DNA of 64,000 nucleotides from NCBI RefSeq assembly GCF_024494595.1, contig NZ_JANHDI010000010.1, forward strand, positions 62,001 to 126,000. The letters are read 5' to 3'. Below are positions 10,818 to 62,328 of the stretch, in pieces. The translations under genes were made by a program, and so were the position numbers. The number at the start of each line of letters is the position of its first letter. Position 1 is the stretch's first letter. The notes below the pieces were generated by a model. The model was not told where the DNA came from. It did not search any database and worked only from the letters and a program-made list of their open reading frames with translations. The DNA comes from Halobellus rarus (lineage in GTDB: Archaea; Halobacteriota; Halobacteria; Halobacteriales; Haloferacaceae).

Positions 10818-10824
10818 TTTATAT
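10818..10824 (+). promoter_or_regulatory. TATA box of structured RNA element 1
   Basis: TTTATAT lies exactly 30 bp upstream of the conserved GTGACGT that begins the RNA element. The same spacing is seen in all four copies in the window. The sequence between (CCGAT, then GGGACCAG) is partly conserved as well. Confidence 0.75.
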
Positions 10825-10847
10825 CCGATGGCGGGACCAGCGTCTCC

Positions 10848-10958
10848 GTGACGTGAACTTCGCCCCGCGTCGGGCAGCGGGTGTCCGGCACGTCGGCGCG
10901 GGAACCGAGAGCGACGGGCGGTCGAACCGGCCCGCCGCAGTGGGTGCCGGCTGTTCGC
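10848..10958 (+). ncRNA. Structured RNA element, copy 1 (unrecognised family)
   Basis: This 111-nt element begins GTGACGT and ends CTGTTCGC. A hairpin, CCCGCGTC (10864-10871) with GGCGCGGG (10895-10902), encloses a loop that holds CCGGCAC (10885-10891). That loop segment pairs with GTGCCGG (10944-10950), which implies a pseudoknot-like or alternative fold. Other copies keep the pairing with different bases, which is the main evidence for RNA function. It lies between the nitrilase gene and the 3' end of the convergent dihydroorotase gene. No credible protein is encoded. I do not recognise the family. Confidence 0.65.
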
Positions 10959-10998
10959 AAGCGGCTTCGGGCCAGAGAAACGTCGCTCCCGATTCCGC

Positions 10999-12297
10999 TT
11001 ACCGGCGGACGTTCCGCCCCTTCGGTTCGCCGACGACCTCCTCGCCGTCGTAGACGACCTCGCCACGGACCAGCGTCAGCGCTGGGAAGACGCCGGACAG
11101 TCCCTCGAACGGCGTCCACCCGCACTTCGAGTGGAGGTCGTCGCCGCGGATCTCCCGCTCGTGTTCCGGATCGACGAGCACCACGTCCGCGTCGTAGCCC
11201 TCGGCGACGCGGCCCTTGGTCGGAAGTCCGAATATCTCCGCGACGTTCGTCGACGTGACGTCGCGAACGCGCTCGTGAGTGATCGCTCCCCGTCGCGCTC
11301 GCGACAGGAGCAGCGGAAGCATCGTCTCGACGCCGGGAACGCCGCTCGGTGCGTCCCACAGACCCACCTCCTTTTCTTCGACGGTGTGCGGGGCGTGATC
11401 GGTCGCGACGATGTCGACGTCGCCGTCGACGAGCCGTTGCCACAGCGCCCGTCGGCGTTCCTCGCTCCGGAGGGGCGGATTCATCCGCCCGTACGTGCCG
11501 AGTTCGGTCGCGTCATCTCGGGAGAGAAACAGGTGATGCGGCGTCACCTCGCAGGTCGCGCCGCCGGCGACGGCGGCGTCGACGCCCTCGGGCGTGCTCG
11601 TGTGCGCGATGTGGATCGACGCGTCGGTCTCGGCACCGACCTCGATGGCGCGCTCGACGGCCGCCGCCTCGGCCTCGGCACGCCGGTACTGGCTCCAGAC
11701 GTCGGCGTCGGCGTCGCGGCCCACGCCGCCGGCGTCGCGCTCCCGCGCCGCCTCGTCGAACAGGTCGGCGTCCTCGGCGTGCACAGTGACGACGACGTCC
11801 GCCTCGCCCGCGCGCTCGACGGCTTCGGCGAAGAGCTCGGCGTCGATACCCATATCGCCCGTGGAATCGGCGAGAAACACCTCGCCGAGGGCGAACAGCG
11901 GCCGATCGAACAGCGAGTCGGGGTCCCAGTCGCGCGTGACGCCGCCGTTGACGCCGTAGTCGACGTGCGAGTCGGCGGCGAGCGACGCCTTCTCGTCGAA
12001 CGCACTCCCCGTGACCGTCGGCGGCGTCGTGTTCGGCTGATCGACGACCGTGGTCACGCCGCCGGCCGCCGCGCTCTGTGAGCCGGTGCGCCAGGTCTCC
12101 TTCTGGGAGTGACCGGGCTCCCGAAAGTGAACGTGCGCGTCGATCGCACCCGGGAGGAGCAGTCGTTCGTCGGCGTCGATAACGCGGTCTCCGGCGTCGC
12201 CGTCCGCGTCGCCGACGTCGGTGATCGTTCCGGACTCGATCCGGACGTCGCAGATCCGGCCGTCGGCGAGTCGCGCGTCGCGAAAGAGCGTCGACAT
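10999..12297 (-). CDS. pyrC: Dihydroorotase
   Basis: The 432-residue amidohydrolase interconverts N-carbamoyl-aspartate and dihydroorotate in pyrimidine synthesis. The metal-binding motif DAHVHFREPGHSQKE lies near residue 53. The later histidines are seen in VTVHAEDADLF and SIHIAHTSTPEG, and the catalytic aspartate is in VATDHAPHTVEEK near 302. The class I layout and length fit the family. The ATG at 12297 gives MSTLFRDARLADGRICDVRI, the normal first beta strands. The 3' end converges with RNA element 1, about 40 bp away. No other pyr genes adjoin it, although pyrH lies 40 kb away. Confidence 0.95.
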   Translation of the reverse strand: MSTLFRDARLADGRICDVRIESGTITDVGDADGDAGDRVIDADERLLLPGAIDAHVHFREPGHSQKETWRTGSQSAAAGGVTTVVDQPNTTPPTVTGSAFDEKASLAADSHVDYGVNGGVTRDWDPDSLFDRPLFALGEVFLADSTGDMGIDAELFAEAVERAGEADVVVTVHAEDADLFDEAARERDAGGVGRDADADVWSQYRRAEAEAAAVERAIEVGAETDASIHIAHTSTPEGVDAAVAGGATCEVTPHHLFLSRDDATELGTYGRMNPPLRSEERRRALWQRLVDGDVDIVATDHAPHTVEEKEVGLWDAPSGVPGVETMLPLLLSRARRGAITHERVRDVTSTNVAEIFGLPTKGRVAEGYDADVVLVDPEHEREIRGDDLHSKCGWTPFEGLSGVFPALTLVRGEVVYDGEEVVGEPKGRNVRR

Positions 12298-12368
12298 ACT
12301 CCGGTGTCTCGCGCGGGCGACCTAAGCGCGACGGTTCAGGGAAGCGCAGCGGTACTGTGCGATCGGCG

Positions 12369-13112
12369 TCACACGCGAGCGTCGCCGTATTCGTCGAGCA
12401 GCGAGGCGAGAGAGACCGACCGTCTGGGGCGGTCGCCGCAGAAGGAGTCACAGAGCGCGTCGGCCACGGCATCGGGAGCCACCGCACCACCGCTGCGGGC
12501 GACGCTTCCGACCGAATCGGGGTCGAACGGCACGTCGAGCGCCTCGTAGATCGGAGCGAGGACCGACGCGAGCTCGTCGTGGGAATCGACCACGACGACG
12601 CCCGCCACGAGCGCCGTTTCGCGCCGGACCCGCTGGGCGATCCCGGAGATCTTTCCGCGGGCCTGCACGGAGTGCTCGCCCGGGCAGAACGACGCCTCCG
12701 GCTCGCCGCGGCGCGCGGGGACCCCGATCGACCGCAGGGCCCGTACCACGGCTGTCGTCGCGGCGTCGTACCGGGATTCGAGCCCGCGCCGGTTGTCTTC
12801 CGTCGGGACCGCGACGGCGAACGCGACCGTGGTGCCCGTATACGCGACTGCGCGTCCGCCGACGCTCCGTTCGACGGCCGGATAGCCGCGGGACTCGGCC
12901 GCCGCTTTCGCCCGTTCGTATCCCGCGGACCGCGCGTCGCGGCGGCCGAAGGCCACGTGGCGGTGCGGCGTCCAGACGCGGACAGTCGGGGCACCGGATT
13001 CGGCCGTCAGAGTGAGCATCGCGTCGGTCCCAGTCCGGTCGGTGTCGAGCGTGGACGCCCGTCCGCGAACGACTCGGACGTCCTCCCCGTCGGGTGTGAT
13101 CTCTTCGAGCAC
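12369..13112 (-). CDS. Lipoate-protein ligase A family protein
   Basis: The 247-residue BPL/LplA-fold protein carries WTPHRHVAFGRRDA (nucleotide-binding region), ERSVGGRAVAYTGTTVAFAV (the family's RRxSGG-like loop, here RSVGG) and VQARGKISGIAQR, with the conserved lysine that contacts lipoyl-AMP. The family attaches lipoate or octanoate to 2-oxoacid dehydrogenase or glycine-cleavage proteins. I chose the GTG at 13112 (VLEEITPDGEDVRVVRGRAS) because similar proteins begin with a VFRGRAS-like strand and no ATG fits between it and that strand. Divergent from the 13184 gene. Confidence 0.85.
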   Translation of the reverse strand: MLEEITPDGEDVRVVRGRASTLDTDRTGTDAMLTLTAESGAPTVRVWTPHRHVAFGRRDARSAGYERAKAAAESRGYPAVERSVGGRAVAYTGTTVAFAVAVPTEDNRRGLESRYDAATTAVVRALRSIGVPARRGEPEASFCPGEHSVQARGKISGIAQRVRRETALVAGVVVVDSHDELASVLAPIYEALDVPFDPDSVGSVARSGGAVAPDAVADALCDSFCGDRPRRSVSLASLLDEYGDARV

Positions 13113-13183
13113 GTCGTGAGGAGATTGGGCCGACGAACCTAAGCGCTCTCGGTCCCCCGAGAGCGTATGATCGGTGGTCGCGA

Positions 13184-14161
13184 GTGACGGTGGACGCCAC
13201 CGTCCACGTACCGGCGTCGACGCTCCGTGCGTACGATCGCTTCTCGCTGTACAACTCGCCGTATCCCGCCCACGACGCCGGATGTGCGATCGATCTCTAC
13301 CCGGAGGACAACGTCGGACGCTCGCCGGTCGCCGGCGTCGTGCGAGAGACCCGTACCGTGCGTGCGCCGGGAAAGCCGTACGCGGCCGACGAGGAGTACC
13401 TCGTTCTCGTCGACGTCGACTGCGAGCGCAGCGGGGTTCGCGTCGAGGGGACCGACGAGGAGGGGCTCGTGGCACGGATCCTCCACGTCCAGCCAGCGGT
13501 CGACCCGGGCGAAACCGTCGCCGTCGGCGACCCGCTCGGTCCGATGATCCGCTCGGGGTTCTTCGCGCCCTGGGTCGCGAACCACGTCCACGTGGGGTTC
13601 CGGCGGGCCGAACAGAACCTCCACCGCGCGGGCGGATCGCTTCCGGTCGTCGCCGACGTCGACGTCGAATCGGTGTCGTGGAACGGGATCGGAACCGTCG
13701 TCGACGTCGGGGACACCTACGCGCTCCTCGACAGCCCGGCCCATCCGGATCCTGGCGAGCGGTTCGTCGGCATCGCCGGGAGCCTCTCCGGAGCGGCGGA
13801 AGCGGCCGCGGGAGGTCCGTCTCCGGCCAACGACACCGCCGAAAATCGGATCGCCCTCGACGGCGGGCTGGCCCACTACGCGGCCGGGGGTGCGCTGGGC
13901 GGCGATCCGAGCTCCGCTGTCGCCGAGCGCACTCCGGTGTCCTTTCTCGGCCAGCGGGTCGGCGACGCGGACGGGCGAGACGTTGCCTGGCGCGACATCG
14001 ACGTCGTCGCGAACGGCGAGCGAATCACCGGACTCTCCCTCTTCGTCAGCCTCGGTCCGGCGTGCGGGGCGAAACTCGTCTGTCCGGATCGGGAGTTCGA
14101 GGTCGGCGAGCGCGTCGAGGTGTCCCTCCGGGAGAGCGAGGAGCCGATCCGTCTGGGTTAG
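13184..14161 (+). CDS. Hypothetical protein with M23/LytM-like domain
   Basis: The 325-residue protein starts at a GTG (MTVDATVHVPASTL). The first half reads like a LytM/M23 or lipoyl-type beta domain: SPVAGVVRETRTVR, ILHVQPAVDPGETVAVGDPL, and ANHVHVGFRRAEQ, where HVH occupies the usual metal HxH position. The rest is a second beta-rich domain without a family I recognise. No signal peptide is evident, so a peptidoglycan-hydrolase-like role outside the cell is unlikely. Haloarchaea lack murein, so a carbohydrate- or cofactor-binding role is possible. It is divergent from the lipoate ligase gene. Confidence 0.7.
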   Translation: MTVDATVHVPASTLRAYDRFSLYNSPYPAHDAGCAIDLYPEDNVGRSPVAGVVRETRTVRAPGKPYAADEEYLVLVDVDCERSGVRVEGTDEEGLVARILHVQPAVDPGETVAVGDPLGPMIRSGFFAPWVANHVHVGFRRAEQNLHRAGGSLPVVADVDVESVSWNGIGTVVDVGDTYALLDSPAHPDPGERFVGIAGSLSGAAEAAAGGPSPANDTAENRIALDGGLAHYAAGGALGGDPSSAVAERTPVSFLGQRVGDADGRDVAWRDIDVVANGERITGLSLFVSLGPACGAKLVCPDREFEVGERVEVSLRESEEPIRLG

Positions 14162-14220
14162 CGGCGACGACCGGAAAGCAGCCCGGCGACGCGCGGGCTA
14201 TGGAAGTAGCGTGGCGGGGC

Positions 14221-14802
14221 CTACTCGAACGTGATCTCTTCGCGCGTCGCCACCTCGCCGAAGAGCCAGTCGGCGTGTCCTAAGGCGTACTCCTTGTGCT
14301 CTTCCTCGATCGCGCCGACGGCGTCCTCGACGAGCACCGGCCGGTAGTCACGGAGCCCGGCGCTCCCCGCGGTGTGGAGGACGCAGACGTTCGCGAGCGT
14401 TCCGCAGACGAGGAGGTCGTCGACGCCGCGAGCCGACAGCCAGCCGTCGAGTTCGGTCTCGTAGAAGGCGTCGTAGGTGTGCTTCTCGACGACGTGGTCG
14501 GCCTCGCGGACGTCGAGCTCTTCGACGAGTTCCGCCTCCCAACTCCCCTCGACGACGTGTTCGCCCCAGCGGTCGAACTCGTCGTAGTAGTGCGCGTCCT
14601 CGAACTGCTCGGGCGGGTGGACGTCGCGGGTGTAGACGACGCTCGCGCCGGCGGCGCGGGCCTCCTCGACCAGGTCGGTCACGTCGTCGATCACGGCCTC
14701 GCTGGCCGGCGCGTGCAGGCTCCCGTCGGGGTGACAGAAGCCGTTCTGCATATCGACGACGACGACGGCGGTACGCGCGGGATCGAACGCAGCGATAGCC
14801 AT
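14221..14802 (-). CDS. Isochorismatase-family cysteine hydrolase, nicotinamidase-like
   Basis: The 193-residue protein has the full catalytic set of the family: Asp in VVVDMQNGF (residue 17), Lys in VVEKHTYDAFYETEL, and Cys in CGTLANVCVLHTA with the preceding cis-peptide turn. Metal-site residues are visible as YTRDVHPP. The family includes nicotinamidase (nicotinamide to nicotinate). The nicotinate phosphoribosyltransferase gene 1.7 kb away makes NAD salvage the likely role, though this is inference. The ATG at 14802 gives MAIAAFDPARTAVVVVD; longer starts add unrelated sequence. Confidence 0.88.
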   Translation of the reverse strand: MAIAAFDPARTAVVVVDMQNGFCHPDGSLHAPASEAVIDDVTDLVEEARAAGASVVYTRDVHPPEQFEDAHYYDEFDRWGEHVVEGSWEAELVEELDVREADHVVEKHTYDAFYETELDGWLSARGVDDLLVCGTLANVCVLHTAGSAGLRDYRPVLVEDAVGAIEEEHKEYALGHADWLFGEVATREEITFE

Positions 14803-14935
14803 ATCGGACCGTAGCTCCGCGGGCGACAAAGGCGTTCTCCCGGCGGGCACAGGGGTCCTACAGAGTCAGAGACGGAAGGGAGGAGAGAGGGTCGATGCGG
14901 AAAGGTACTTCCCCGCGTGGTCCCTTCCCCCGGCA

Positions 14936-16393
14936 ATGACGCGGAAACGCGGCCTCGCCGTCCCGGCGGTGGCCCTTTTGCTCGTCCTCGCTGGGTGCAG
15001 CGCGCCGGCGTTAGACTCGGGCGCTTCGGCCCCGCCCGCAGCGGGCGGAGGCGACGCCGTCGCGACGCCGAACGCCGACTTCGACGACCCCGAGCGCGAC
15101 GTCCTCGGCTGGGAAGACGGCTACTGGTACAACGAATCGATCGACGTGAATCAGTCCGACGGCCTCTCCGACGAGGAGTTGGACGCCTACGTCGGGCGGG
15201 CGATGGCGAGGGTCGAGTACGTCCGCGGGGAGGAGTTCGACTCGCGCGTGCCGGTGAACGTGATCTCCCGCGAGGAGTACCGGAACCGATCGTCCGGCGG
15301 GTCGAGCGGCGGCGGACCGAGCGAGTACGAGCGCTGGAACGATCAGGTGTGGGAGGCGCTGTTCGTGACCGGCGAGACCGAGAGCAGCGGCGAGGCGATC
15401 GGCGAGACCAGAAGCTCCTCCGTCGCCGGCTTTTACTCCCCCTCCGACGACGAGATCAAGATCATCACCGACACCCCCGAGTCGCCGACGATCAACAACG
15501 CGACGCTCGTTCACGAACTCGTCCACGCCCTTCAGGACCAGCGCTACGATCTGACGAAGGCGAAGTACGGCGGCGACACCCAGGACGAGCAGCTCGCGAC
15601 CGACGGCCTCGTCGAGGGCGACGCGAAGTACGTCGAACAGCGGTACGCCCAGCGCTGTGGCGGCGCGTGGGAGTGCGTCGCCACGCCGTCGAGCGGCGGC
15701 GGAGGCGGCGGTAGCGGTGGAACGCCGAACCTGGGTATCTTCCTGACGATCTTCCAGCCCTACTCCGACGGGCCGGTCTACGTCCACGACCTCGTCAGTA
15801 GCGAGGGGTGGGACGCCGTCGACGAGCGCTTCGAGAACCCGCCGGCCTCCTCCGAGCAGATCATCCACCGGACCGACGAGGAACCGGTTCCCGTCGACTA
15901 CCGCGATCGGGCGCGGAACGGCTGGGACACGTTCTCCGAGCAGGGCGAAGACGGCTCCGACACCGTCGGCGAGGCCTCGATGTACGTGATGTTCTGGTAC
16001 CAGGCGCGAACGTACGACGCGGAGACGATCGACCCGCGGAGCATCGGGAACGTCCAGAGTCGGTACGACACGTACAACTACGAGTCCGAGCCCTCTGCGG
16101 GCTGGGGGAACGACCGACTCTACCCGTACCAGAAGGGGACCGACGCCGAGGCCGAGTACGGCTACGTCTGGGTGACCGAGTGGGACACCGAGGAAGACGC
16201 GAGGGAGTTCCAGCGGGCCTACCGCGCGATACTCGACGCCCACGACGCGGAACAGCGCGCCGAGCGCACCTACGTGGTCCCCGACGGCGAGTTCGAGGAC
16301 GCCTTCCGGGTGACGCGCTCGGGGACGCGCGTGACCGTCGTGAACGGACCGACCGTCGACGACCTCGACGACATCCGGCCGCGGCGGTCCTGA
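14936..16393 (+). CDS. Secreted lipoprotein, HExxH metalloprotease-like (Hvo_1808-type surface protein)
   Basis: The 485-residue protein has an N-terminal signal with lipobox LVLAGCSAP (lipid-modified Cys near 22) and no twin arginine. A spacer rich in Ser, Gly and Pro follows. The zinc-peptidase motif HELVHALQD lies near residue 197, preceded by GFYSPSDDEIKI and followed by LVEGDAKYVEQRY, which supplies a plausible third ligand. I recall this architecture as the Hvo_1808 family of haloarchaeal surface proteins. It is probably anchored outside the cell. A glycine-serine run lies near residues 251-261. Substrate unknown. Confidence 0.85.
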   Translation: MTRKRGLAVPAVALLLVLAGCSAPALDSGASAPPAAGGGDAVATPNADFDDPERDVLGWEDGYWYNESIDVNQSDGLSDEELDAYVGRAMARVEYVRGEEFDSRVPVNVISREEYRNRSSGGSSGGGPSEYERWNDQVWEALFVTGETESSGEAIGETRSSSVAGFYSPSDDEIKIITDTPESPTINNATLVHELVHALQDQRYDLTKAKYGGDTQDEQLATDGLVEGDAKYVEQRYAQRCGGAWECVATPSSGGGGGGSGGTPNLGIFLTIFQPYSDGPVYVHDLVSSEGWDAVDERFENPPASSEQIIHRTDEEPVPVDYRDRARNGWDTFSEQGEDGSDTVGEASMYVMFWYQARTYDAETIDPRSIGNVQSRYDTYNYESEPSAGWGNDRLYPYQKGTDAEAEYGYVWVTEWDTEEDAREFQRAYRAILDAHDAEQRAERTYVVPDGEFEDAFRVTRSGTRVTVVNGPTVDDLDDIRPRRS

Positions 16394-16469
16394 GGCGGTC
16401 GCGGCCGCCTGGTTCGACGAGCGGTCCCGACTTTGAAGAGGAATCCCCTTCGGAAAACGGGGCCGAACG

Positions 16470-16482
16470 AGTGTATTTTTCA
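16470..16482 (+). promoter_or_regulatory. Probable TATA promoter of nicotinate phosphoribosyltransferase
   Basis: GTGTATTTTTC lies about 30 bp before the ATG at 16505. This is the usual distance for a leaderless haloarchaeal transcript, and no Shine-Dalgarno sequence is seen. Confidence 0.5.
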
Positions 16483-16504
16483 ACGCGCGCGGCGAACGCC
16501 GCGT

Positions 16505-17671
16505 ATGGAGTTCGACATCGTCGGTCCCGACGCCATCGCCGAGGGGTCGGCGACCGACGCGTACTTCGATCGGACGGAGACGACGCTCCGCCACGCCGAG
16601 CGGAACCCCCACGTCGTCGCCGAGGTGACCGCCGACCAGTTCCCCGACGGCGACTTCGAGCTGCTGGCGGGCGTGAAAGACGCCGCAGCGCTTCTGGAGG
16701 GCCGCGACGTCGACGTCGACGCCGTCCCGCCGGGGCGGCTGTTCGACGGCGGTCCCGTGATGCGGATCGAGGGCGATTACCTGGCGTTCGCCCGGCTGGA
16801 AACGTCGCTTCTGGGCTTTCTCTCGCACGCCTCGGGCGTCGCGACCGCCGCCCTCGACGTCAGGGTGGCGGCGCCGGAGTCGACGGTGCTCTCGTTCGGC
16901 GCGCGCCACGTTCACCCGTCCATCGCGGCGATGATCGAACGGGGCGCGCTCGTCGCCGGCCTCGACGGGTTCTCGCACGTCGCCGCCGGCGAGGTCATCG
17001 GCCGGGAGGCGGGCGGGACGATGCCGCACGCGCTGCTCATCTGTTTCGGCCGCGGGAACCAAGAGCAGGCCTGGCGGGCGTTCGACGAGGCGGTCGACGA
17101 AGACGTTCCCCGAGTAGCGCTGTGTGACACCTACTCCGACGAGGCCGACGAGGCCCTCCGCGCCGCGGAGGCGCTCGGCGACCGACTCGACAGCGTCCGA
17201 CTCGACACGACCGGTTCGCGACGGGGAGACTTCCGACACATACTCAGAGAGGTTCGGTGGACGCTCGACGCGCACGGACACGAGGACGTCGACATCTTCG
17301 CGTCCGGGGGGCTCGGCCCCGCGGAGCTACGCGAGCTCCGCGACGTCGCCGACGGCTTCGGCGTCGGGGGCCACGTCTCCAACGCCGACCCCGTCGACTT
17401 CGCGCTCGACATCGTGGAGGTCGACGGGGAACCGGCGGCCAAGCGCGGCAAGCTCACCGGCGCGAAGCAGAGTTACCGGACGGCCGACGGCGGCCACCAC
17501 GTCGGACTGCGGGACCGCGCGGGGCCGGAGAACGGCGAGGCGCTGCTGCGGCCGCTCGTCCGAGACGGAGAAATCGTCGACGACGTCGATCTCGGCATCG
17601 ACGCGGCCGCCGAGCGGGCCGCCCGGGACGCGGAGCTGTGTGGGTACGGCGACGCCGACACCGGTGAGTAA
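16505..17671 (+). CDS. Nicotinate phosphoribosyltransferase
   Basis: The 388-residue type II phosphoribosyltransferase converts nicotinate and PRPP to nicotinate mononucleotide in NAD salvage. Family features include FARLETSLLGFLSHASGVAT, SFGARHVHPSIA (substrate-loop histidine), GTMPHALLICFG, LCDTYSDEADE, and the PRPP-binding strands VRLDTTGSRRGDF and IFASGGLGPAELREL. The ATG at 16505 directly follows a TATA element. The length fits archaeal members. The nicotinamidase-like gene at 14221-14802 would supply its substrate, although the two genes are on opposite strands. Confidence 0.93.
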   Translation: MEFDIVGPDAIAEGSATDAYFDRTETTLRHAERNPHVVAEVTADQFPDGDFELLAGVKDAAALLEGRDVDVDAVPPGRLFDGGPVMRIEGDYLAFARLETSLLGFLSHASGVATAALDVRVAAPESTVLSFGARHVHPSIAAMIERGALVAGLDGFSHVAAGEVIGREAGGTMPHALLICFGRGNQEQAWRAFDEAVDEDVPRVALCDTYSDEADEALRAAEALGDRLDSVRLDTTGSRRGDFRHILREVRWTLDAHGHEDVDIFASGGLGPAELRELRDVADGFGVGGHVSNADPVDFALDIVEVDGEPAAKRGKLTGAKQSYRTADGGHHVGLRDRAGPENGEALLRPLVRDGEIVDDVDLGIDAAAERAARDAELCGYGDADTGE

Positions 17672-17713
17672 CGGGTCGGTCTGAACGCGTATCGGACCGT
17701 TCGGGTCCGTCGC

Positions 17714-18316: not shown

Positions 18317-18494
18317 ATCTCTGTGAAAGCCCTCCGCTGACTTGAACGCTTCCCTTCTATCTGCGGCGTATACGGCCCCAGAAGTCCGTTCGAGCGGTCC
18401 GATATGGTTTATGATGATACTTGAGGCTGTGTTCGTCCACGCGCACATCGACGGACACATCCCTCCTTTCTCCGCCCGCGAATCGAACGACCGA

Positions 18495-18506: not shown

Positions 18507-18532
18507 ACACTATCGCCTCGAATCGAACGGCA

Positions 18533-18968
18533 GAGAGAGCTCGGCTCCCGTCGGTCCACCCCGGACTGACGAGGAAAGTCCCCCCACCGTCCGGACGGGT
18601 GACCGGGCGCAAGCCCGGAGTCGGAGACGACTGGCTCTGGAACAGAGACGAGACCCCTCGACCCGACCGATGAGACGCGAGCGGCGGATTCCGCCGCCGG
18701 CGCTCGCGGGGCGACCCGCGAGCGCGCGAACCGACCCGCGAGGGGAGGGAGTTGACCCGTCGAGGGCAGCGCAGTCGCAACGCGACCGCAGAAAGTGAGC
18801 GGCGTCAGCCGCGAACGGCGCAGTCGCGACACGACCGCCGACGGTCGAGAACGGATGGAACGGCGAATCCTCACCGGTGCAAGTCCGCGCCGCCAAGGTA
18901 GTCCGGACAGGGCGCGGCCGCTCAGCCGAATGCCGAGACGAACAGAAGGGGGCTTACTCCTCTCAGCC
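18533..18968 (+). ncRNA. rnpB: RNase P RNA (archaeal type A)
   Basis: Universal RNase P RNA blocks are present in order. GAGGAAAGTCC (conserved region I) is at 18571-18581. ACCGGGCGCAAGCCCGG (P-stem with a GCAA loop) is at 18602-18618, followed by CTGGAACAGAGACGAGACC. The 3' conserved region AACAGAAGGGGGCTTAC is at 18941-18957 and would pair back to region I as helix P4. Length near 435 nt suits haloarchaea. The ends are approximate, set by a possible P1 pairing of GAGAG near 18535 with CTCTC near 18963. The RNA cleaves 5' leaders of pre-tRNAs with Rpp proteins. Confidence 0.88.
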
Positions 18969-30274: not shown

Positions 30275-30281
30275 TTTAAAT
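30275..30281 (+). promoter_or_regulatory. TATA box of structured RNA element 2
   Basis: TTTAAAT lies exactly 30 bp upstream of GTGACGT. The intervening sequence shares TACGATCG and GGCCA with the other copies. Confidence 0.72.
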
Positions 30282-30304
30282 ACGATCGGGCGGCCACCGA
30301 CGCT

Positions 30305-30420
30305 GTGACGTGAGTGAGGTCCCGCGTCGAAACGCGGTTGTTCGGCACAGTGACGCGGGGCGGCGACGACCACCGGGAGGCGGGGGTCCGGCCGTCGGGC
30401 GGTGTGCCGACTGTTCGCCA
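30305..30420 (+). ncRNA. Structured RNA element, copy 2
   Basis: The 116-nt element begins GTGACGT and ends CTGTTCGCCA. The hairpin is CCCGCGTC (30321-30328) with GACGCGGG (30352-30359). The loop segment TCGGCAC (30342-30348) pairs with GTGCCGA (30404-30410). This copy lies in open intergenic space between divergent genes, so it is not simply the 3' untranslated region of a neighbour. Confidence 0.65.
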
Positions 30421-39897: not shown

Positions 39898-39904
39898 TTT
39901 ATAT
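39898..39904 (+). promoter_or_regulatory. TATA box of structured RNA element 3
   Basis: TTTATAT lies exactly 30 bp before GTGACGT. The next bases, ACGATCGCGGGGCCAGAG, nearly match copy 4. Confidence 0.75.
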
Positions 39905-39927
39905 ACGATCGCGGGGCCAGAGCCCGC

Positions 39928-40020
39928 GTGACGTAGCGTTCGCCCCGCGTCGGTCAGCGGTTGCCCGACACGCCGTCGTGGGTCTCGCGTCGATAGCGGC
40001 CGCCCGTGTCGGCTGTTCGC
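39928..40020 (+). ncRNA. Structured RNA element, copy 3 (shortest)
   Basis: The 93-nt element begins GTGACGT and ends CTGTTCGC. The hairpin is CCCGCG (39944-39949) with CGTGGG (39977-39982, one wobble). The loop segment CCGACAC (39965-39971) pairs with GTGTCGG (40006-40012). Two positions have changed together relative to copy 4 (TCGGCAC/GTGCCGA), the best compensatory evidence in the set. The 3' end abuts the stop of the convergent DUF5807-like gene. Confidence 0.65.
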
Positions 40021-40021
40021 C

Positions 40022-40528
40022 CTATTCGGCTCCCTCGGCCGGTTCCGACTCGCCGGGTTGAACCCCCGTCTCGGTCTCCTCGCCGACGACCCACTTGTCC
40101 GAGTAACTCGCCCCGCAGGCGCAGTGGGCGTAGGCGTGAACGACCGCACCGCGGGCGTAGAGCCCGCCGACCTCCTCGTTTTGCGCCTCCGAGAACGCGA
40201 AGATGAACTCGACCGCGTGGTCGCCGTCGGCGTCCTCGCCGGAGTCCCCGTCGGTAGCGTCGGCCTCGGGGCACTCGCCGCCGTCAAGGTCGCGAGAGAT
40301 GTGCCCCTGCGACTCCATCGCCCCGCGGGCGAACTCCATCGCGTCCATCCCCGTCCCGGCGGCGAACGCGCGTCGGCCGTCGTCGCCCGGGACGACGAGC
40401 ACGTAGCCCGATTCGACCGCTTCGCCCATCTTCGGGAGTTTCCCCTGACTGTCGAGGTAGTCCTCGGTCAGATACAGCGCGACGTCGTCGTGGCGCTCGC
40501 CGGCGAGGAACGCGTCGAGTTGGCTCAT
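40022..40528 (-). CDS. DUF5807-like haloarchaeal protein
   Basis: The 168-residue protein starts MSQLDAFLAGERHDDVALYL. It carries GYVLVVPGDDGRRAFAAGTG, an acidic insert, HAVEFIFAFSEAQNEEVGGL and HAYAHCACGASYSDKWVVG, with a CxCG pair and several histidines that may bind zinc. The layout matches my memory of DUF5807; the function is unknown. Its stop codon is immediately next to RNA element 3 on the other strand, so the two transcripts would overlap at their 3' ends if either runs on. Confidence 0.82.
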   Translation of the reverse strand: MSQLDAFLAGERHDDVALYLTEDYLDSQGKLPKMGEAVESGYVLVVPGDDGRRAFAAGTGMDAMEFARGAMESQGHISRDLDGGECPEADATDGDSGEDADGDHAVEFIFAFSEAQNEEVGGLYARGAVVHAYAHCACGASYSDKWVVGEETETGVQPGESEPAEGAE

Positions 40529-51247: not shown

Positions 51248-51253
51248 TCGTGG

Positions 51254-52926: not shown

Positions 52927-52929
52927 GCG

Positions 52930-54627: not shown

Positions 54628-54732
54628 CGGGAGAATCGCGGAGGCGGTGCGTCGCGGTCGCGGAGGCGGTGCGGAGCCACCAGCAGTCGAACCGCGAGCG
54701 AGGCCGGAGGTCGAGCGAGCGGCTCTTTTTTC

Positions 54733-54801: not shown

Positions 54802-54841
54802 TTAGGAACACCTTTTGGCGTTCGTCCCTTTCGTCCCCACG

Positions 54842-56662: not shown

Positions 56663-56731
56663 AGAGGCGACGGCGGTCCTGGACGGGTCGTCCCACAGAT
56701 ACTTGCCGTCGCGGTCACGACTTCGGCGGCG

Positions 56732-56968
56732 ATGACCGATTCCGATCTACGGCGATCCGTCCGTCGGAGCGCCGCCGTCCTGCTGGTCCCGCTCTCCCTC
56801 CTGCTTATCCAGATCGAGGTCGTCACGAGGAACCTTCCGGGCGTCGTCGAATCGTCACTCCCCGGGATCTCTCGTGGCATCGGCCTCGTGTTGCTGATCG
56901 TCGCTCTCCTGTACCTCCTCGTGAGCGGGGCGAGACAGCTCTACAGGGCGGCGGATACGCCATTCTAA
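56732..56968 (+). CDS. Small membrane protein (78 aa)
   Basis: The protein starts MTDSDLRRSVRRSAAVLLVP. It has two hydrophobic segments, AAVLLVPLSLLLIQIEVVTR and GIGLVLLIVALLYLLVSGAR. There are no catalytic residues. It lies 69 bp after the site-2 protease gene and 100 bp before pitA on the same strand. Function unknown. Confidence 0.7.
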   Translation: MTDSDLRRSVRRSAAVLLVPLSLLLIQIEVVTRNLPGVVESSLPGISRGIGLVLLIVALLYLLVSGARQLYRAADTPF

Positions 56969-57068
56969 CGCGGGCGAATCGGGCGAAGAACCAAACGGAC
57001 CGACGGACGCTCCCGGAATCTGGGAACGACTCGCAACGTCCATACGGGTGGCGTTCTAACCCGGATCT

Positions 57069-58631
57069 ATGCCAGAGGCCCCACCAACCGACGAGGGCTG
57101 GTTCGTGCTGCACGACTTCCGTACCGTCGACTGGGACGCGTGGCGGGACGCACCCGAACGCGAACGCGAGCGCGCGATCGCGGAGGGCACGGAGTACCTC
57201 CGACGCCACGAAGAGATCGCCGATTCTGACGAGGGCGACTCGGCGGTCTTCTCGGTGCTCGGCCACAAGGCCGACTTACTGGTCGTCCACTTCCGACCGA
57301 CGCTCGACGACCTCTCGCGCGCCGAGCGGCAGTTCGAGGGGACCGCGCTCGCGGCCTTCACCGAACAGCCGACCTCGTACGTCTCCGTGACGGAGATTTC
57401 GGGCTACACCAGTCCCGATTACTTCGAGGACCCCGAATCGGCCGACGCGGGCCTGCGACGCTACATGGAGGGCAAAAAGAAGCCGGAGATGCCCGAGGAC
57501 GAGTACGTCTCCTTCTACCCGATGTCGAAGCGCCGCGGCGAGGAGCACAACTGGTACGACCTCTCGTTCGAGGACCGCGCCGAGATGATGGCGACGCACG
57601 CCGAGACGGGGAAGGAGTACGCCGGGAAGATCGAGCAGGTCATCGCCTCCTCGGTCGGGTTCGACGACTACGAGTGGGGCGTGACGCTGTTCTCCGACGA
57701 CCCGACCCACATCAAGGACATCGTCTACGATATGCGGTTCGACGAGGTCTCCTCGAAGTACGGCGAGTTCGGCCAGTTCTACGTCGGTCGTCGGTTCCCG
57801 CCGAACGACCTCGGCGCGTACCTCGAAGGCGCGGCCGTGCCGACGAGCGAACACGGCGACGAAGCGGGACAGGCCCACGGCGGTCATCCGCACGGCGACA
57901 CCGACGCCCACGGGGAGGCCCACGGCCACGCGCACGGCGACGGCGAGGCCCACGGCGGGTCGGGCGGTCACGGGGGGGCACACGGCGGTGGCAGCGCTCA
58001 CGGCGATTCCCCTCACGGCGACGACGAAGCCGGAGACGCCGACAGCGACGACAGCATCCGCGAGGAACTGGCGGATCTGGACATCTACGCCGGAAAGCCG
58101 CACGGCGAGGACGTCTACGCCACGGTCCTGTACTCGGAGGCCGACACCGACGAACTGTTCGAGGAGGTCGACGGCCTCCGGGGCAACTTCGATCACTACG
58201 ATACGCACGTGAAGACGGCGGTCTACGAGGCCCAAAACGGAAGTCGAAGCGCCGTCGTGAGCATCTGGGACACCCAGTCGGCCGCGGAAACAGCCGCGGG
58301 CTTCCTCTCGGAACTGCCGGGCATCGTCTCCCGCGCCGGCGAGGAGTCCGGCTTCGGGACGATGGGGATGTTCTACACCGTCAAACCCGAGCACCACGGG
58401 GACTTCGTCGACACGTTCGGGACCGTTGGCGACCTCCTCGACGAGATGGAGGGCCACCAGGAGACGGACCTGATGATGAACGTCGAAGACGAGAACGACA
58501 TGTTCATCTCCAGCCAGTGGGACGCCCGCGAGGACGCGATGGAGTTCTTCCGCTCCGAGGAGTTCAGCGAGACGGTCCAGTGGGGTCGCGACGTGCTCGC
58601 CGACCGGCCGCGACACGTCTTCTTGGCGTAG
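57069..58631 (+). CDS. pitA: PitA-type protein: chlorite dismutase/HemQ domain fused to antibiotic-monooxygenase-like domain
   Basis: The 520-residue protein has an N-terminal chlorite-dismutase-family domain (about 1-255, with PMSKRRGEEHNWYDLSFEDR and the proximal-histidine region MATHAETGKEYAGKIEQVIA). A Gly/His-rich linker with repeats such as AHGEAHGHAHGDGEAHGG follows (about 262-325). A C-terminal ABM-like domain ends it (about 340-520, with SIWDTQSAAETAAGFLSELP). The layout matches haloarchaeal PitA. Related HemQ enzymes decarboxylate coproheme to heme b; PitA's own reaction is less clear. The linker may bind metals. Confidence 0.93.
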   Translation: MPEAPPTDEGWFVLHDFRTVDWDAWRDAPERERERAIAEGTEYLRRHEEIADSDEGDSAVFSVLGHKADLLVVHFRPTLDDLSRAERQFEGTALAAFTEQPTSYVSVTEISGYTSPDYFEDPESADAGLRRYMEGKKKPEMPEDEYVSFYPMSKRRGEEHNWYDLSFEDRAEMMATHAETGKEYAGKIEQVIASSVGFDDYEWGVTLFSDDPTHIKDIVYDMRFDEVSSKYGEFGQFYVGRRFPPNDLGAYLEGAAVPTSEHGDEAGQAHGGHPHGDTDAHGEAHGHAHGDGEAHGGSGGHGGAHGGGSAHGDSPHGDDEAGDADSDDSIREELADLDIYAGKPHGEDVYATVLYSEADTDELFEEVDGLRGNFDHYDTHVKTAVYEAQNGSRSAVVSIWDTQSAAETAAGFLSELPGIVSRAGEESGFGTMGMFYTVKPEHHGDFVDTFGTVGDLLDEMEGHQETDLMMNVEDENDMFISSQWDAREDAMEFFRSEEFSETVQWGRDVLADRPRHVFLA

Positions 58632-58690
58632 GCGCGAGAGTCGCGCCTCTCCGACGCGTCTGACGCGCTTGCGACTGCAGCGTCAGACGC
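58631..58690. terminator. Two adjacent hairpins between convergent genes
   Basis: GGCGCGA/TCGCGCC (58631-58647, three-base loop) begins on the last base of the pitA stop codon. It is followed by a perfect 11-bp pair, GCGTCTGACGC/GCGTCAGACGC (58656-58666 with 58680-58690). They separate convergent pitA and the SHOCT-type gene. No T-tract is near, so the role as terminator or transcript-end stabiliser is tentative. Confidence 0.5.
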
Positions 58691-58729
58691 CGCCCAGTGC
58701 GTCGGTTTCGAAGCGAAACGAAGGGGTCG

Positions 58730-59335
58730 CTACCGCTCGCGTTCGACCGACCGGGTGACGTCGTCGCCAAGCGTCACAGAAGTCGATCCCTTCCCGGAGC
58801 GGTCCTCCGTTTCGACGAGCGCCTCGAGGCGACGCTCGAACTCCGCGTGGTCGATTTCTCCCTCCGCGTACCGCGTCCGGAGTCGCTGGATCGGGCGTTC
58901 GTCAACAGCGTCGTCGGACTCCCTCCTTCCGAGGAACCCGGTCGAACCGGTTTCGGTCGTCCCCGTCGCGTCGATCCCCTCGGCTGCGCTGCCACCGCTC
59001 GATTCGGCCGACTGCCGGCGGTACCGTCCGACGGCGAACAGGACGCCGTACCAGAGCAGCATCGTCGCCGGAGCGACGACCAGAAACGCCGTGACCGGGT
59101 TGGCGGCGGTGAACAGCGACAGCAGGGCGAGCCAGACGCCGACGACGATTCCGAGCAGGGGAGGGCTCCGCGCGACGGCGGAAACGTACCCGGAGAGTCG
59201 TCTTCCGAGTCGGTGGAGGGCCGTCGTACCTCGGGATCTGTCGGCCGAGAGAAAAGTCGTTTCGGTCAGTCCGACCGATAGCGTCGGTACGCGAGGGCCC
59301 CGAAGACACCGGTCAGGAGCGTCAGCGCGTCCCAC
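58730..59335 (-). CDS. Membrane protein with C-terminal SHOCT domain
   Basis: The protein of up to 201 residues has two hydrophobic helices (SPPLLGIVVGVWLALLSLF and TAFLVVAPATMLLWYGVLFA), a Ser/Gly/Thr-rich linker, and a SHOCT domain, PIQRLRTRYAEGEIDHAEFE followed by RRLEALVE. SHOCT domains occur at the ends of many small prokaryotic membrane proteins and may aid oligomerisation. The start is uncertain: the ATG at 59335 makes it overlap the next upstream gene by 70 bp, and the first 30 residues look non-conserved, so a later alternative codon is possible. Confidence 0.7.
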   Translation of the reverse strand: MGRADAPDRCLRGPRVPTLSVGLTETTFLSADRSRGTTALHRLGRRLSGYVSAVARSPPLLGIVVGVWLALLSLFTAANPVTAFLVVAPATMLLWYGVLFAVGRYRRQSAESSGGSAAEGIDATGTTETGSTGFLGRRESDDAVDERPIQRLRTRYAEGEIDHAEFERRLEALVETEDRSGKGSTSVTLGDDVTRSVERER

Positions 59336-59457
59336 GGCGAGGGATCGACGTCACGCGCGTCGGCGTCGCGCCTGACCCACGCGGTCAACGCCACGTGGGC
59401 GACTGCGGTGAGTGCGACGAACGCAGTCGTGCGCGAGATCGACGTGTCGGACGGCAC
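59266..59457 (-). CDS. Small membrane protein (63 aa)
   Basis: The protein starts MPSDTSISRTTAFVALTAVA. It has a hydrophobic N-terminal helix, a charged middle WVRRDADARDVDPSPWDALT, and a second helix LLTGVFGALAYRRYRSD. The middle pattern, RRDA-ARD-PxPWxxLT-xGVFGLxAYxRYR, looks conserved in haloarchaeal micro-proteins. It begins one base after the aldo/keto reductase stop codon on the same strand and probably shares its transcript. Function unknown. Confidence 0.68.
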   Translation of the reverse strand: MPSDTSISRTTAFVALTAVAHVALTAWVRRDADARDVDPSPWDALTLLTGVFGALAYRRYRSD

Positions 59458-59458
59458 G

Positions 59459-60541
59459 TCAGTCCGACGACGCGGAGTTCCGCGGCCCCGCCGTCGCCCG
59501 CTTGTCGATCCCGGCGGCGCGGATGTCCTCGCCGCCGACCGAGGAGCGGAGTTCGTCCATCCCGTCGTCGCGGTCGATGCCGAAGTTGTCCTCGTAGAGG
59601 TCGGCGACGCGCGCCATCTCCTCGTCGGAGAGCTTCGGGACCTCCGAGGCCGCGGCCCACTCGGTGATGTCCTCCTTCGTGTGGAACGTCGGCGTCACGC
59701 TCGCGACCGCCTCGTGGCTGAGGAGGTACGCGATGGCGGCCTGGCCCATCGTGCGCTCGCCGTCCCGTTCGAGGAAGCGAAGCGTCTCGAGTTTCTCCCA
59801 GCCCGTCTCGTACCACGCGTCGGGGCGGAAGCCGCGGTGGTCGTCGAGGTCGTGGCCCGTCTCGGGCGTGACCTGCTCGTTCAGGAGGCCCGAGGAGTGC
59901 GGGACGCGCGGGATCAGACTGGTCGACGAGCCCGTCCGCTCGATGGTGTCGAGGAAGTGGTTGCCGACCTCCTGCTCGAAGAGGTTCCAAACCAGTTGGA
60001 CGGAGTCGAACTCCTCCTCGATGGCCATATCGCCCTCGGCGAGCCAGCCGATCGAGGGCCCGAGCGCCCAGCCGATCGATCTGACGAGCCCCTCCTCTTT
60101 GAGTTCGTCCAGCGCTTCCAACACATCCTCGTCGACCTCGTCGACGTTCGCGTTGTGGAGTTGGAGGACGTCGACGTACTCCATCCCCAGTCGGTCGAGG
60201 CTCTTCTCGGTCGCCGAGCGGACCCACTCGCCGGTGATCTCCTTCGGCAGTTCGCCGTGGCCCGCCTGGGGGTGGTTGTAGAAGTCGTAGCCGATCTTCG
60301 TGGCGACGGTGACGTCGTCTCGGTGTCCGTCGAGCGCCTCGCCGAGCAACTCCTCGCTGTCGCCGTGGCCGTAGACGTCGCCGGTGTCGAAGTAGGTGAT
60401 CCCCTCGTCGATGGCGTGGCGGATCAGTTCGATCGAGTCCTCGCGCGTCCGGTCGCCCCACCAGTCGGTGCCGACGACCCACGCGCCGAAGCCGACCTCG
60501 CTCACTTCGACGTCGGAATCGCCCAGCGTCTGGAAGTTCAT
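59459..60541 (-). CDS. Aldo/keto reductase family oxidoreductase
   Basis: The 360-residue NADP-dependent barrel enzyme starts MNFQTLGDSDVEVSEVGFGA. The catalytic residues are visible: Asp and Tyr in ITYFDTGDVYGHGDSEELLG, Lys in VTVATKIGYDF, and His in DVLQLHNANVD. Cofactor-side sequence is AIAYLLSHEAVASVTPTFHT. The substrate could be an aldehyde or sugar. The downstream 63-residue membrane protein gene follows after one base. Confidence 0.92.
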   Translation of the reverse strand: MNFQTLGDSDVEVSEVGFGAWVVGTDWWGDRTREDSIELIRHAIDEGITYFDTGDVYGHGDSEELLGEALDGHRDDVTVATKIGYDFYNHPQAGHGELPKEITGEWVRSATEKSLDRLGMEYVDVLQLHNANVDEVDEDVLEALDELKEEGLVRSIGWALGPSIGWLAEGDMAIEEEFDSVQLVWNLFEQEVGNHFLDTIERTGSSTSLIPRVPHSSGLLNEQVTPETGHDLDDHRGFRPDAWYETGWEKLETLRFLERDGERTMGQAAIAYLLSHEAVASVTPTFHTKEDITEWAAASEVPKLSDEEMARVADLYEDNFGIDRDDGMDELRSSVGGEDIRAAGIDKRATAGPRNSASSD

Positions 60542-60623
60542 ACCCGAACGTTGGGCGGCGATTTATTTAGAGTGTCGCCTGCTCCCGCGGGTCGGGAACG
60601 TCGGGACCGAGACCTCCGGACGA

Positions 60624-60689
60624 CCGCACGTTCGTCGATCGGACGCATTCATCGGTCGCACTCGTTCGTCGATCGGACTCGCTCGTCGA
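60624..60689. repeat. Short direct repeats after the FAD-oxidoreductase stop codon
   Basis: CGTTCGTCGATCGGAC occurs twice and CGCTCGTCGATC once, spaced about 20-30 bp, directly 3' of the minus-strand oxidoreductase. They are less regular than the repeats near 250 and 51200 but sit in the same position relative to a stop codon. Confidence 0.7.
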
Positions 60690-62081
60690 TCACCCGCGCT
60701 CGTACGCGAACAACCCGTCCGGATCGTACGTCTCGCGAACCTCCCGCAGTCGCTCGGCGTTCGCCGCGTACACGTCCTCGGCGTCGGGCGCTCGTCCGCC
60801 GGCGAAGTTCGGGAGCGTCCCGGGGATCGACGTCCGCTCGCGGAACCGACGACAGGTCTCGCGGACCCACTCGACGTTGTCCGTCGTCGCCGTCGGGTCG
60901 TCCCACGCGGCCTCGACGTTCACGACGACGTCGGCGTCGCGTCCGGCGAGCGGGGTCTCCGACTCGGGGGTCCTGCCGACCGCCCCGTGCATCGGCCAGA
61001 CGACGATCGTCGACAGCTCCGAGGGCGCGGCCGCGGCGGCCGTTCGGAGTTCGCCGATGGCGTCGTCGTCGAGCTCGGCCAGCGGCACCGACTTCCAGTA
61101 GTACCGGCGGCCGACCGGGAAGTCCCCGTCCATCATCGACTGGAGATCGGTGTAGGCCATCGTCTCGAACGACTCGGCGAACGCGTCGGGGTGACCGCGG
61201 AACGTCTCGAACTCCCGCCGGCCGACGGCCGGGTCGCCCGCGTGGACGCCGGCGACGACGAGCGCGAGGTCGCCGTGGCGGTCTGCCGGGAACTCGGCGA
61301 TCGCTGGAACGCTCGCGAAGTACGGGAACACGCAGGACTCGTCGGGTGCGTCCCGCTGGTAGCGGCGGTATTCGCGGAGCGCGTCGTCGGCGACCGCAAC
61401 GGGGAGCCACGACTCGAAGTAGGGGACGTCGTGATCGAGCGGGTGCAGGTCGAACTCGAAGGCGGTGACGACGCCGGGCGTACCGCCGCCACGGGCCGCC
61501 CAGAACAAGTCCGCGTGGCGCTCGGCGTCGGCCGTCACGCGTTCACCGCTCCCGGTGACGACCTCGATTTCGCGGAGGTTGTCCGCGGTGAACCCGTGTT
61601 TCGGCGAGAGGTAGCCCGTGCCGCCGCCGAGCGTGAGACCCGCGACGCCGGTGTCGGCGTACACGCCGCCGGGCGTCGCCAGGCCGAACGACTGCGTGGT
61701 GCGGTCGACCGTTCCCCAGGTCGCCCCCGGTCCGACGCGCGCGGTTCCCTTCTCGGGATCGACGCGCACCCACTCCATCCGCGAGCAGTCGACGACGAGG
61801 CCACCCGAGACGACAGAAGCGCCGGAGACGCTGTGACCACCGCTTCTGACCGCGATTTCGAGGTCGTGCTCGCGGGCGAAGCCGACCGCGACCCGCACGT
61901 CGTCGACGGATTCGCAGTAGGTGATCGCCGCCGGATATTCGTTTACCATCCCGTTCCAGACCCGCCGCGCCTCGTCGTAGACGTCGTCCGACGGGGCCAC
62001 GACGTCGCCGCCGAACCGTTCGGAGAGACCCCCGAGCGGGAGGCCGTCCGCGACCCGCCGAGCGTCCCGGTTCGCGTCCAT
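60690..62081 (-). CDS. FAD-linked oxidoreductase (berberine-bridge-enzyme-like)
   Basis: The 463-residue protein binds FAD through the VAO/PCMH fold: IAVRSGGHSVSGASVVSGGL holds the histidine that can be covalently linked to FAD, and VAGLTLGGGTGYLSPKHGFT follows. The cysteine used for a second covalent bond in plant and fungal enzymes is absent there. The C-terminal BBE motif, RLREVRETYDPDGLFAYERG, is typical. Substrates are often sugars or alcohols; none can be chosen. No secretion signal is seen. RNA element 4 lies upstream, divergent. Confidence 0.88.
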   Translation of the reverse strand: MDANRDARRVADGLPLGGLSERFGGDVVAPSDDVYDEARRVWNGMVNEYPAAITYCESVDDVRVAVGFAREHDLEIAVRSGGHSVSGASVVSGGLVVDCSRMEWVRVDPEKGTARVGPGATWGTVDRTTQSFGLATPGGVYADTGVAGLTLGGGTGYLSPKHGFTADNLREIEVVTGSGERVTADAERHADLFWAARGGGTPGVVTAFEFDLHPLDHDVPYFESWLPVAVADDALREYRRYQRDAPDESCVFPYFASVPAIAEFPADRHGDLALVVAGVHAGDPAVGRREFETFRGHPDAFAESFETMAYTDLQSMMDGDFPVGRRYYWKSVPLAELDDDAIGELRTAAAAAPSELSTIVVWPMHGAVGRTPESETPLAGRDADVVVNVEAAWDDPTATTDNVEWVRETCRRFRERTSIPGTLPNFAGGRAPDAEDVYAANAERLREVRETYDPDGLFAYERG

Positions 62082-62132
62082 ACGACTACCAAGCGGTCAC
62101 GTCGTTTACCGATTGGGGCGACGGCACTGAGA

Positions 62133-62139
62133 TTTATAT
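62133..62139 (+). promoter_or_regulatory. TATA box of structured RNA element 4
   Basis: TTTATAT lies exactly 30 bp upstream of GTGACGT. ACGAACGCGGGGCCAGAG follows, nearly as in copy 3. Confidence 0.75.
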
Positions 62140-62162
62140 ACGAACGCGGGGCCAGAGGCCCC

Positions 62163-62328
62163 GTGACGTAGGAGTAGTTCCGCGTCGGGCAGCGGGTGTT
62201 CGGCACGTCGACGCGGGAAGCGGCGACGACGCGGTCGCCCTCGCAGGAGCCGACGGCGCCGGTGAGGACGTCGTCGTGGGGAGTCGAGGGCGTCGCCATC
62301 GTCGCGAGCGGGGTGCCGACTGTTCGCC
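62163..62328 (+). ncRNA. Structured RNA element, copy 4 (longest)
   Basis: The 166-nt element begins GTGACGT and ends CTGTTCGCC. The hairpin is CCGCGTCG (62180-62187) with CGACGCGG (62209-62216). The loop segment TCGGCAC (62200-62206) pairs with GTGCCGA (62313-62319). Pairing can extend outward through GCGGGTG with TGTTCGC, using G-T wobbles. The extra length is a GC-rich insert between the hairpin and the 3' strand. It lies 31 bp from the 3' end of the convergent pepF gene. Confidence 0.68.

Follow-up and report, generated by a model that had tools for sequence, protein, structure and literature searches.

The stretch analysed here, a 64,000-nucleotide window of the haloarchaeon Halobellus rarus (contig NZ_JANHDI010000010.1, positions 62,001 to 126,000; C24:62001-126000 in our numbering of the 25 contigs of the 3.66-Mb genome, G000), carries four copies of a short element combining a promoter, a two-codon open reading frame (ORF), a hairpin and a pseudoknot. 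An earlier note on this DNA had reported four structured, independently promoted RNAs, and the elements were found at the places it named, all on the + strand. TTTATAT or TTTAAAT lies 30 bp 5' of GTGACGT in all four (10818 to 10848, 30275 to 30305, 39898 to 39928 and 62133 to 62163), the hairpin loops CCGGCAC, TCGGCAC, CCGACAC and TCGGCAC are complementary to GTGCCGG, GTGCCGA, GTGTCGG and GTGCCGA, each of which abuts CTGTTCGC downstream, and the distance from GTG to the end of CTGTTCGC is 111, 114, 93 and 165 nt in copies 1 to 4, confirming variable length between fixed ends. GTGACGT by itself is ordinary (16 occurrences in the window versus 19.2 expected); it is the combination of parts that is unusual. 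The motif is real, but the earlier note overlooked that, with two further bases, it forms a start, a sense and a stop codon. The parts of the four copies are as follows.

10818-10824, + strand: copy 1, TATA box TTTATAT, then a GRCCA motif at -13 to -9 (from the sequence and the spacing in 151 elements)
10848-10856, + strand: copy 1, two-codon ORF GTG ACG TGA at the predicted transcription start (from sequence and conservation)
10863-10902, + strand: copy 1, hairpin P1, arms 10863-10872 and 10894-10902, loop with pseudoknot strand CCGGCAC (10885-10891)
10944-10959, + strand: copy 1, pseudoknot strand GTGCCGG (10944-10950) and tail CTGTTCGCA (10951-10959), where conservation ends
30275-30281, + strand: copy 2, TATA box TTTAAAT
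30305-30313, + strand: copy 2, two-codon ORF GTG ACG TGA
30320-30360, + strand: copy 2, hairpin P1 with pseudoknot strand TCGGCAC (30342-30348)
30404-30419, + strand: copy 2, pseudoknot strand GTGCCGA and tail CTGTTCGCC
39898-39904, + strand: copy 3, TATA box TTTATAT
39928-39936, + strand: copy 3, two-codon ORF GTG ACG TAG
39943-39982, + strand: copy 3, hairpin P1 with pseudoknot strand CCGACAC (39965-39971)
40006-40021, + strand: copy 3, pseudoknot strand GTGTCGG and tail CTGTTCGCC, directly abutting the end of a predicted convergent gene (40022-40528)
62133-62139, + strand: copy 4, TATA box TTTATAT
62163-62171, + strand: copy 4, two-codon ORF GTG ACG TAG
62178-62218, + strand: copy 4, hairpin P1 with pseudoknot strand TCGGCAC (62200-62206)
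62219-62312, + strand: copy 4, variable insert of 94 nt, self-folding (z about -2.2 versus mononucleotide shuffles)
62313-62328, + strand: copy 4, pseudoknot strand GTGCCGA and tail CTGTTCGCC

Structure, copy number and inheritance of the element

The expectation that the genome would hold dozens of copies is borne out. The tail motif occurs in G000 at 38 exact and 12 one-mismatch sites, versus 4 for the reversed control, and 47 of these 50 sites hold a complete element (it is absent at L001, L041 and L043). A covariance model built from the 47 copies (R1) and scored over the whole genome returned 54 copies at E <= 4.8e-11, followed by a gap until E = 0.008; because all 47 training copies carry [AG]TG, R1 is biased towards it.

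From 5' to 3', the element comprises a TATA box TTTATAT at -30, GRCCA at -13 to -9, a start codon [G/A]TG at +1, one codon, a stop, a spacer and the hairpin P1, with a stem of about 10 bp and a loop holding GCGRKHGY and the 7-nt pseudoknot strand; the 3' arm of P1 is followed by an insert, the second pseudoknot strand and the tail CUGUUCGCC(A/C), behind which conservation ceases. The spacer between stop and P1 has no conserved sequence; its length ranges from 2 to 8 nt and is 6 or 7 nt in 108 of the 151 elements. The insert spans about 4 to 108 nt in G000 and often folds on itself: among the 42 of 47 inserts with at least 25 nt the mean z is -1.8, with 27 below -1.5 (mononucleotide shuffles). 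The predicted RNA should be about 76-180 nt long.

P1 holds up well in this larger set, with 95.3% of 470 cells paired and both sides changed in 7 of 10 pairs; none of 500 shuffles scored as high on any of five measures, and slid versions were paired at 31.7-58.1%. Its outermost pair is loose, being unpaired in 19 of 47 copies. The compensatory pairing of loop and tail segments, proposed from the four window copies, recurs in many combinations, including TCGGCAC/GTGCCGA, CCGGCAC/GTGCCGG, GCGACGC/GCGTCGC, GCGGCTC/GAGCCGC and ACGGCAC/GTGCCGT, although their number is no test, because the element finder demands this complementarity (together with [AG]TG and a TATA spacing of about 28-32; behind the pairing it demands only CTG). 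The cleanest case of pseudoknot covariation is a single orthologous locus, that of window copy 1 behind an amidohydrolase gene: CCGGCAC/GTGCCGG is found in 8 of 12 genomes of the genus, G000 included, CTGGCAC/GTGCCAG in G006, CCGACAC/GTGTCGG in G013, CCGGTAC/GTACCGG in G004 and CCGGCAC/GTGCTGG, with a G-U pair, in G003. A genome of another family, G091, has a copy at this locus too; none lies directly behind the amidohydrolase gene in G020, G025 and G031, which carry elements elsewhere, or in G017, G023, G036, G038 and five low-G+C genomes described below. P1 and the loop-tail helix are thus crossing helices with compensatory changes, as in an H-type pseudoknot. An extra helix between the loop GCGR and the tail was considered and is unsupported (mutual information <=0.08 bits, 143 elements).

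The copies are inherited in place. Of 40 copies fetched from Halobellus limi, 39 could be located, and 36 of these share flanks and orientation with one of the 47 G000 copies, 34 of them matching on both sides; the copies are therefore not mobile. A whole-length comparison of 27 ortholog pairs separates conserved from free parts: differences fall on 274/1015 sites of the upstream flank and 240/749 of the downstream flank (27-32%), on 38% of spacer sites, on 6/189 and 4/189 sites of the two pseudoknot strands (2-3%) and on 10/243 sites of the tail. This comparison required [AG]TG in both copies, so that its 0/81 start changes are largely built in. Insert length is unequal in 26 of the 27 pairs, and no conserved reading frame can therefore follow. 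That these elements are RNA genes of one family, structured and conserved in position, is nearly certain; the way the sequences have evolved reveals the spacing of the promoter, the start codon, the in-frame stop, the stem, the pseudoknot, the tail and vertical inheritance.

As an observation on individual copies, L003 (C2:71033-71120) and L004 (C2:82079-82166), 11 kb apart, are near-identical, and their H. limi orthologs differ from both and from each other, which suggests recent gene conversion between L003 and L004.

Beyond this species, R1 has matches in 59 of 99 relatives. The covariance search of haloarchaeal genomes that the earlier note had called for was made with a second model, R2, whose training set consisted of 82 matches in 79 loci, some of them from genomes searched afterwards. 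It matches 331 of 391 Halobacteria genomes and 72 of 86 genera; its copy numbers are lower bounds, because just 11 candidates were scored per genome, and matches with E near 1e-4 may include chance. In a phylum-wide draw of 294 genomes, 43 had matches, 42 in the same haloarchaeal order and one elsewhere at E = 2.7e-4. The 73 named stretches, selected by a pattern containing GTGACCTGA and hence excluded from the evidence on the two-codon ORF, are all haloarchaeal (Halobellus, Halogeometricum, Halobaculum, Halogranum, Halorubrum, Halomarina, Haladaptatus, Halorussus, Natronomonas and others). An unannotated gap of the H. limi plasmid NZ_CP031312.1 holds one match, and viral contigs gave no match to two exact element patterns. 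Five genomes carrying the same genus label (G001, G009, G011, G012 and G016) have no detectable elements, the amidohydrolase locus included; this may reflect true loss or AT-rich divergence, which are indistinguishable there because the sampled loci have only 47-51% G+C.

The family is apparently undescribed so far, in keeping with the novelty that the earlier note had inferred. Rfam 15, at the gathering threshold, recognised in the window only RNase P and a tRNA and nothing at the elements, and in six carrier loci at E <= 1 its sole match was mir-598 in L112 (1564-1650), away from the element at 4008-4097. The RNase P match is the archaeal RNase P RNA gene at 18529-18968 (RF00373, 127 bits). 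Literature searches aimed at the family, mostly outside subscription journals, gave no description, and the main text of Weinberg 2010 (PMC2864571) has no word beginning with halobac or haloarch.

Several familiar RNA classes were also considered. A C/D-box RNA was rejected on inspection by eye, and a riboswitch or attenuator leader on the convergent orientation of the downstream gene in 28 of 47 copies and on the unrelated neighbours. For a guide RNA of the omega RNA type, the 30 nt behind the tail vary too freely, differing at 240/749 sites (0.32), like other flanking DNA. Antisense pairing of the tail with rRNA was rejected, a full complement not being found on the rRNA strand of the rRNA stretch examined. 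The tail CUGUUCGCC resembles helix 92 of 23S rRNA, but mimicry of the A-loop is put down to chance: the genome reads GGTTGTTCGCC at helix 92, only 8 nt agree, and the tail variants CTGTCAGCC and CTGCAAGCC found elsewhere count against it.

Promoter and two-codon reading frame

Independent promotion, as first proposed, is supported by flanking genes that take any orientation and by the placing of the TATA box, 30 nt ahead of the start in 145 of 151 elements, within the range of about 28-32 nt that the finder permitted. A strict TATA box starting at -30 occurs in 29 of 47 elements versus 3 strict matches in 137 predicted genes, which is a weak test. The promoter pattern TTNAN5GAN4GNGRCCAN8RTG, with one mismatch allowed, has 54 matches in G000 and 3 for the reversed control. 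Eight of the matches are non-elements, seven of which open frames of 132-569 codons exactly at RTG; the eighth, C22:138005, is regarded as chance, having no TATA box, lying inside an opposite-strand predicted gene and opening only 19 codons. Because 35% of random [AG]TG in the window open at least 130 codons, ORF length alone gives only about 0.0007, and the argument gains strength from Pfam, which recognises five of the seven proteins: a DUF7382 protein, a phospholipase D-domain protein, two MinD/ParA-type P-loop ATPases and a phosphoglucomutase/phosphomannomutase, whose alignment begins at the second residue. The other two have no Pfam match. Our gene caller starts five of the seven genes at RTG; for L273 and L277 it chose an opposite-strand frame instead, although Pfam matches both on the strand proposed here. 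GRCCA is seldom found at -13 in other genes: 2 of 160 predicted genes have it there, and loci of the seven are among the 160. Since the seven protein genes start at the same base, the GTG of the element sits at the leaderless start position of this promoter class, and the start codon probably lies at the 5' end of the RNA. In Haloferax volcanii, according to the parts covered of PMC4983044, 72% of coding transcripts are leaderless, about 80% of these starting on the start codon, and 118 leaderless transcripts (6%) have a GUG start.

The arrangement [G/A]TG-NNN-stop is present in 52 of the 54 own copies. In the 47 analysed individually, the start is GTG in 45 and ATG in 2, and the third codon is a stop in 46 (TGA 31, TAG 12, TAA 3); six of the remaining seven also fit, and one has ATC as start. 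Elsewhere in the first twelve codons, in-frame stops are rare (codon 4 in two copies, codon 5 in three), and 1.1% of the 2397 random [AG]TG of the window are followed by a single codon and a stop. A pattern blind to the ORF, with start and stop left free, gave 162 matches in other genomes of the genus; among the 118 listed and read, 116 have a two-codon ORF, with GTG as start in 111 and ATG in 7, TGA, TAG, TAA, TGG and TGT as third codon in 76, 30, 10, 1 and 1, and 15 kinds of middle codon. Given T-R-R, the near absence of TGG has a Fisher p of 3e-18, ignoring kinship of copies.

Kinship is handled by the 36 G000/H. limi ortholog pairs, which were anchored on the hairpin alone. All 72 sequences have [AG]TG, the sole start changes being two GTG/ATG swaps, and 71 have a stop at codon three; the stop type differs in six pairs, five of which retain a stop (the sixth, L011/L216, changes from TAG to TGG), and the second codon differs at 21/108 sites and the spacer at 89/216 (L006 one base out of register). 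In other genera, the top-scoring R1 matches (L060-L077) read GTGACCTGA, GTGCGCTGA, GTGATCTGA, GTGACGTGA, GTGACATGA, GTGCGTTGA and ATGATCTGA. A start, one codon and a stop under selection are the sequence hallmarks of a two-codon minigene, and we consider it highly probable that this ORF has been selected as an ORF.

At one locus, between a zinc-ribbon and a HAD phosphatase gene, the second codon encodes arginine (CGC, CGT, CGA) in 7 of 7 copies from three genera (L060, L067, L075, L192, L195, L198 and L283), as if the amino acid were important at this copy.

A proposed ribosome-gated RNA and its rivals

The reading that we favour, at about even odds (a probability near 0.5), is a stand-alone RNA on which a ribosome would initiate, read two codons and terminate at the pseudoknot, the ORF serving as a 5' guard and switch. 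Transcription from the element's own TATA promoter would yield an RNA beginning with a leaderless two-codon cistron, usually GUG-NNN-stop, on whose 5' end a 70S ribosome would initiate in the haloarchaeal leaderless mode, make one peptide bond and terminate where the rigid pseudoknot meets its leading edge. The ribosome would thereby cover and gate the 5' end with the RNA body not unfolded, and this body (pseudoknot, loop GCGRKHGY and tail) would act in trans, with a protein or the ribosome itself as its probable binding partner. The cistron is most likely a ribosome-dependent guard and switch rather than the source of a useful dipeptide.

What favours the ribosome-gated RNA is the spacer, whose sequence is free but whose length is largely held, as expected if ribosome and pseudoknot must fit together. 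P1 mostly begins near +16, counted from the first base of the start codon, and the front of an initiating ribosome lies near +16. GUG is the preferred start (51 of 54 own copies), which suggests that ribosome loading is meant to be weak or tunable, and the large number of genes, about 50, suggests that the dose is important. A more tentative extension is a class-wide RNA, in about 50 copies, whose stability or activity would be switched by the ribosome, with the two-codon cistron as cap and sensor coupled at a held distance to the pseudoknot; if true, such an RNA would inform the cell about the state of translation initiation or termination.

A number of observations weigh against this interpretation. 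The exceptions to the two-codon ORF are L009, which has no stop, L284, with its ATC start, a TGG in one H. limi copy and a TGT in one G007 copy. GUG is a weaker start codon and argues against efficient translation. T-runs are rare downstream of the tail, 1 of the 47 own copies having TTTT in the next 80 nt, and the tail is without a full complement on the rRNA strand in the stretch mentioned above. The guarding of an RNA by a ribosome, finally, we infer by analogy.

Many copies of a minigene could alternatively trap ribosomes, release factor or peptidyl-tRNA after two codons and so lower translation under some condition, a brake of the kind that the two-codon bar minigenes of phage lambda exert. 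The ORF in 52 of 54 copies, the copy number of 54 and the near-consensus TATA boxes (29 of 47 strict at -30, versus 3 in 137 genes) would suit it; nevertheless we find it unlikely, as the covarying pseudoknot, the conserved tail and the held spacing are all needless for a brake, the weak GUG is preferred, and stop types and second codons drift. We regard with similar doubt the proposal that the ORF has no positive role and that, behind a leaderless-type promoter, an early stop only shields the pseudoknot from unfolding by ribosomes. The stop does precede P1 and the second codon is free, yet the start codon could then be lost, and it persists as [AG]TG in 72 of 72 ortholog sequences when unconstrained neighbours differ by 27-38%.

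The gene context bears on a further, rather improbable explanation, in which the element controls the adjoining gene in cis by antisense or divergent transcription and its RNA product matters little. Position and orientation have been retained in 36 of the 39 H. limi copies that could be located and, at the site flanked by the zinc-ribbon and HAD-phosphatase genes, across three genera; 33 of the 47 own copies have a divergent upstream gene, and tandem pairs are crossed antisense in 21 versus 7 cases. The downstream gene, however, is convergent in 28 copies and co-directional in 19 (orientations from our own gene caller, a few of whose calls are doubtful), the neighbours are unrelated genes in every orientation with no common downstream gene and no shared function apparent among the loci translated, and a cis regulator would have no need of an internal pseudoknot, a tail or an ORF.

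A DNA site for chromosome organisation or protein binding would explain dispersed copies in both orientations at conserved positions, but is very unlikely: P1 and the pseudoknot contain G-U pairs, the pairing persists although the insert varies in length, and start and stop are in frame, all of which favours an RNA. A dispersed mobile repeat without cellular role, either like a miniature inverted-repeat transposable element (MITE) or a transposon guide-RNA gene, has in its favour the tens of similar copies per genome and is contradicted by orthologous DNA around 36 of 39 located H. limi copies (34 on both sides), purifying selection on discrete parts, the lack of a conserved 3' guide and viral contigs without a match to the two exact patterns.

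Relation to known systems

Viral readthrough and frameshift signals place a coding event, a short spacer and an H-type pseudoknot in the same order as the haloarchaeal element, in which no conserved downstream frame is possible. The closest bacterial likeness is with the two-codon minigenes mg2 of axe-txe and LEE1, which likewise consist of a start, one sense codon and a stop; as far as the parts covered of PMC8708949 go, mg2 acts in cis, possibly protecting its RNA from cleavage. These minigenes sit in the leader of a downstream gene, whereas the haloarchaeal ORF is predicted at the extreme 5' end of a stand-alone RNA and, unlike them, comes with a pseudoknot and in tens of copies across an archaeal class. 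In the minimal AUG-stop upstream ORF (AUGUAA) of Arabidopsis NIP5;1, a ribosome event at a minimal ORF also decides the fate of the RNA, although that system is eukaryotic and the ORF lies upstream of one for boron transport (PMC11915504, in part). Small RNAs of Haloferax are also independently transcribed from intergenic DNA, as is predicted for the element, and the parts covered of four papers on them (PMC4983044, PMC6560208, PMC5892119 and PMC8155600) describe no multicopy family with this structure.

The conservation pattern points to a class of RNA that would be touched by the ribosome but not translated further, a small RNA in which leaderless initiation, termination once a single peptide bond is made and a rigid pseudoknot would come together. 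Such an element would be a natural probe of how the leaderless 70S initiation complex behaves, and it makes the role of archaeal intergenic RNAs directly testable. On a smaller scale, the GA-N4-GNGRCCA motif, placed downstream of the TATA box and ahead of the start, which the element shares with a few protein genes, the seven of L273-L279, hints at a possible regulon.

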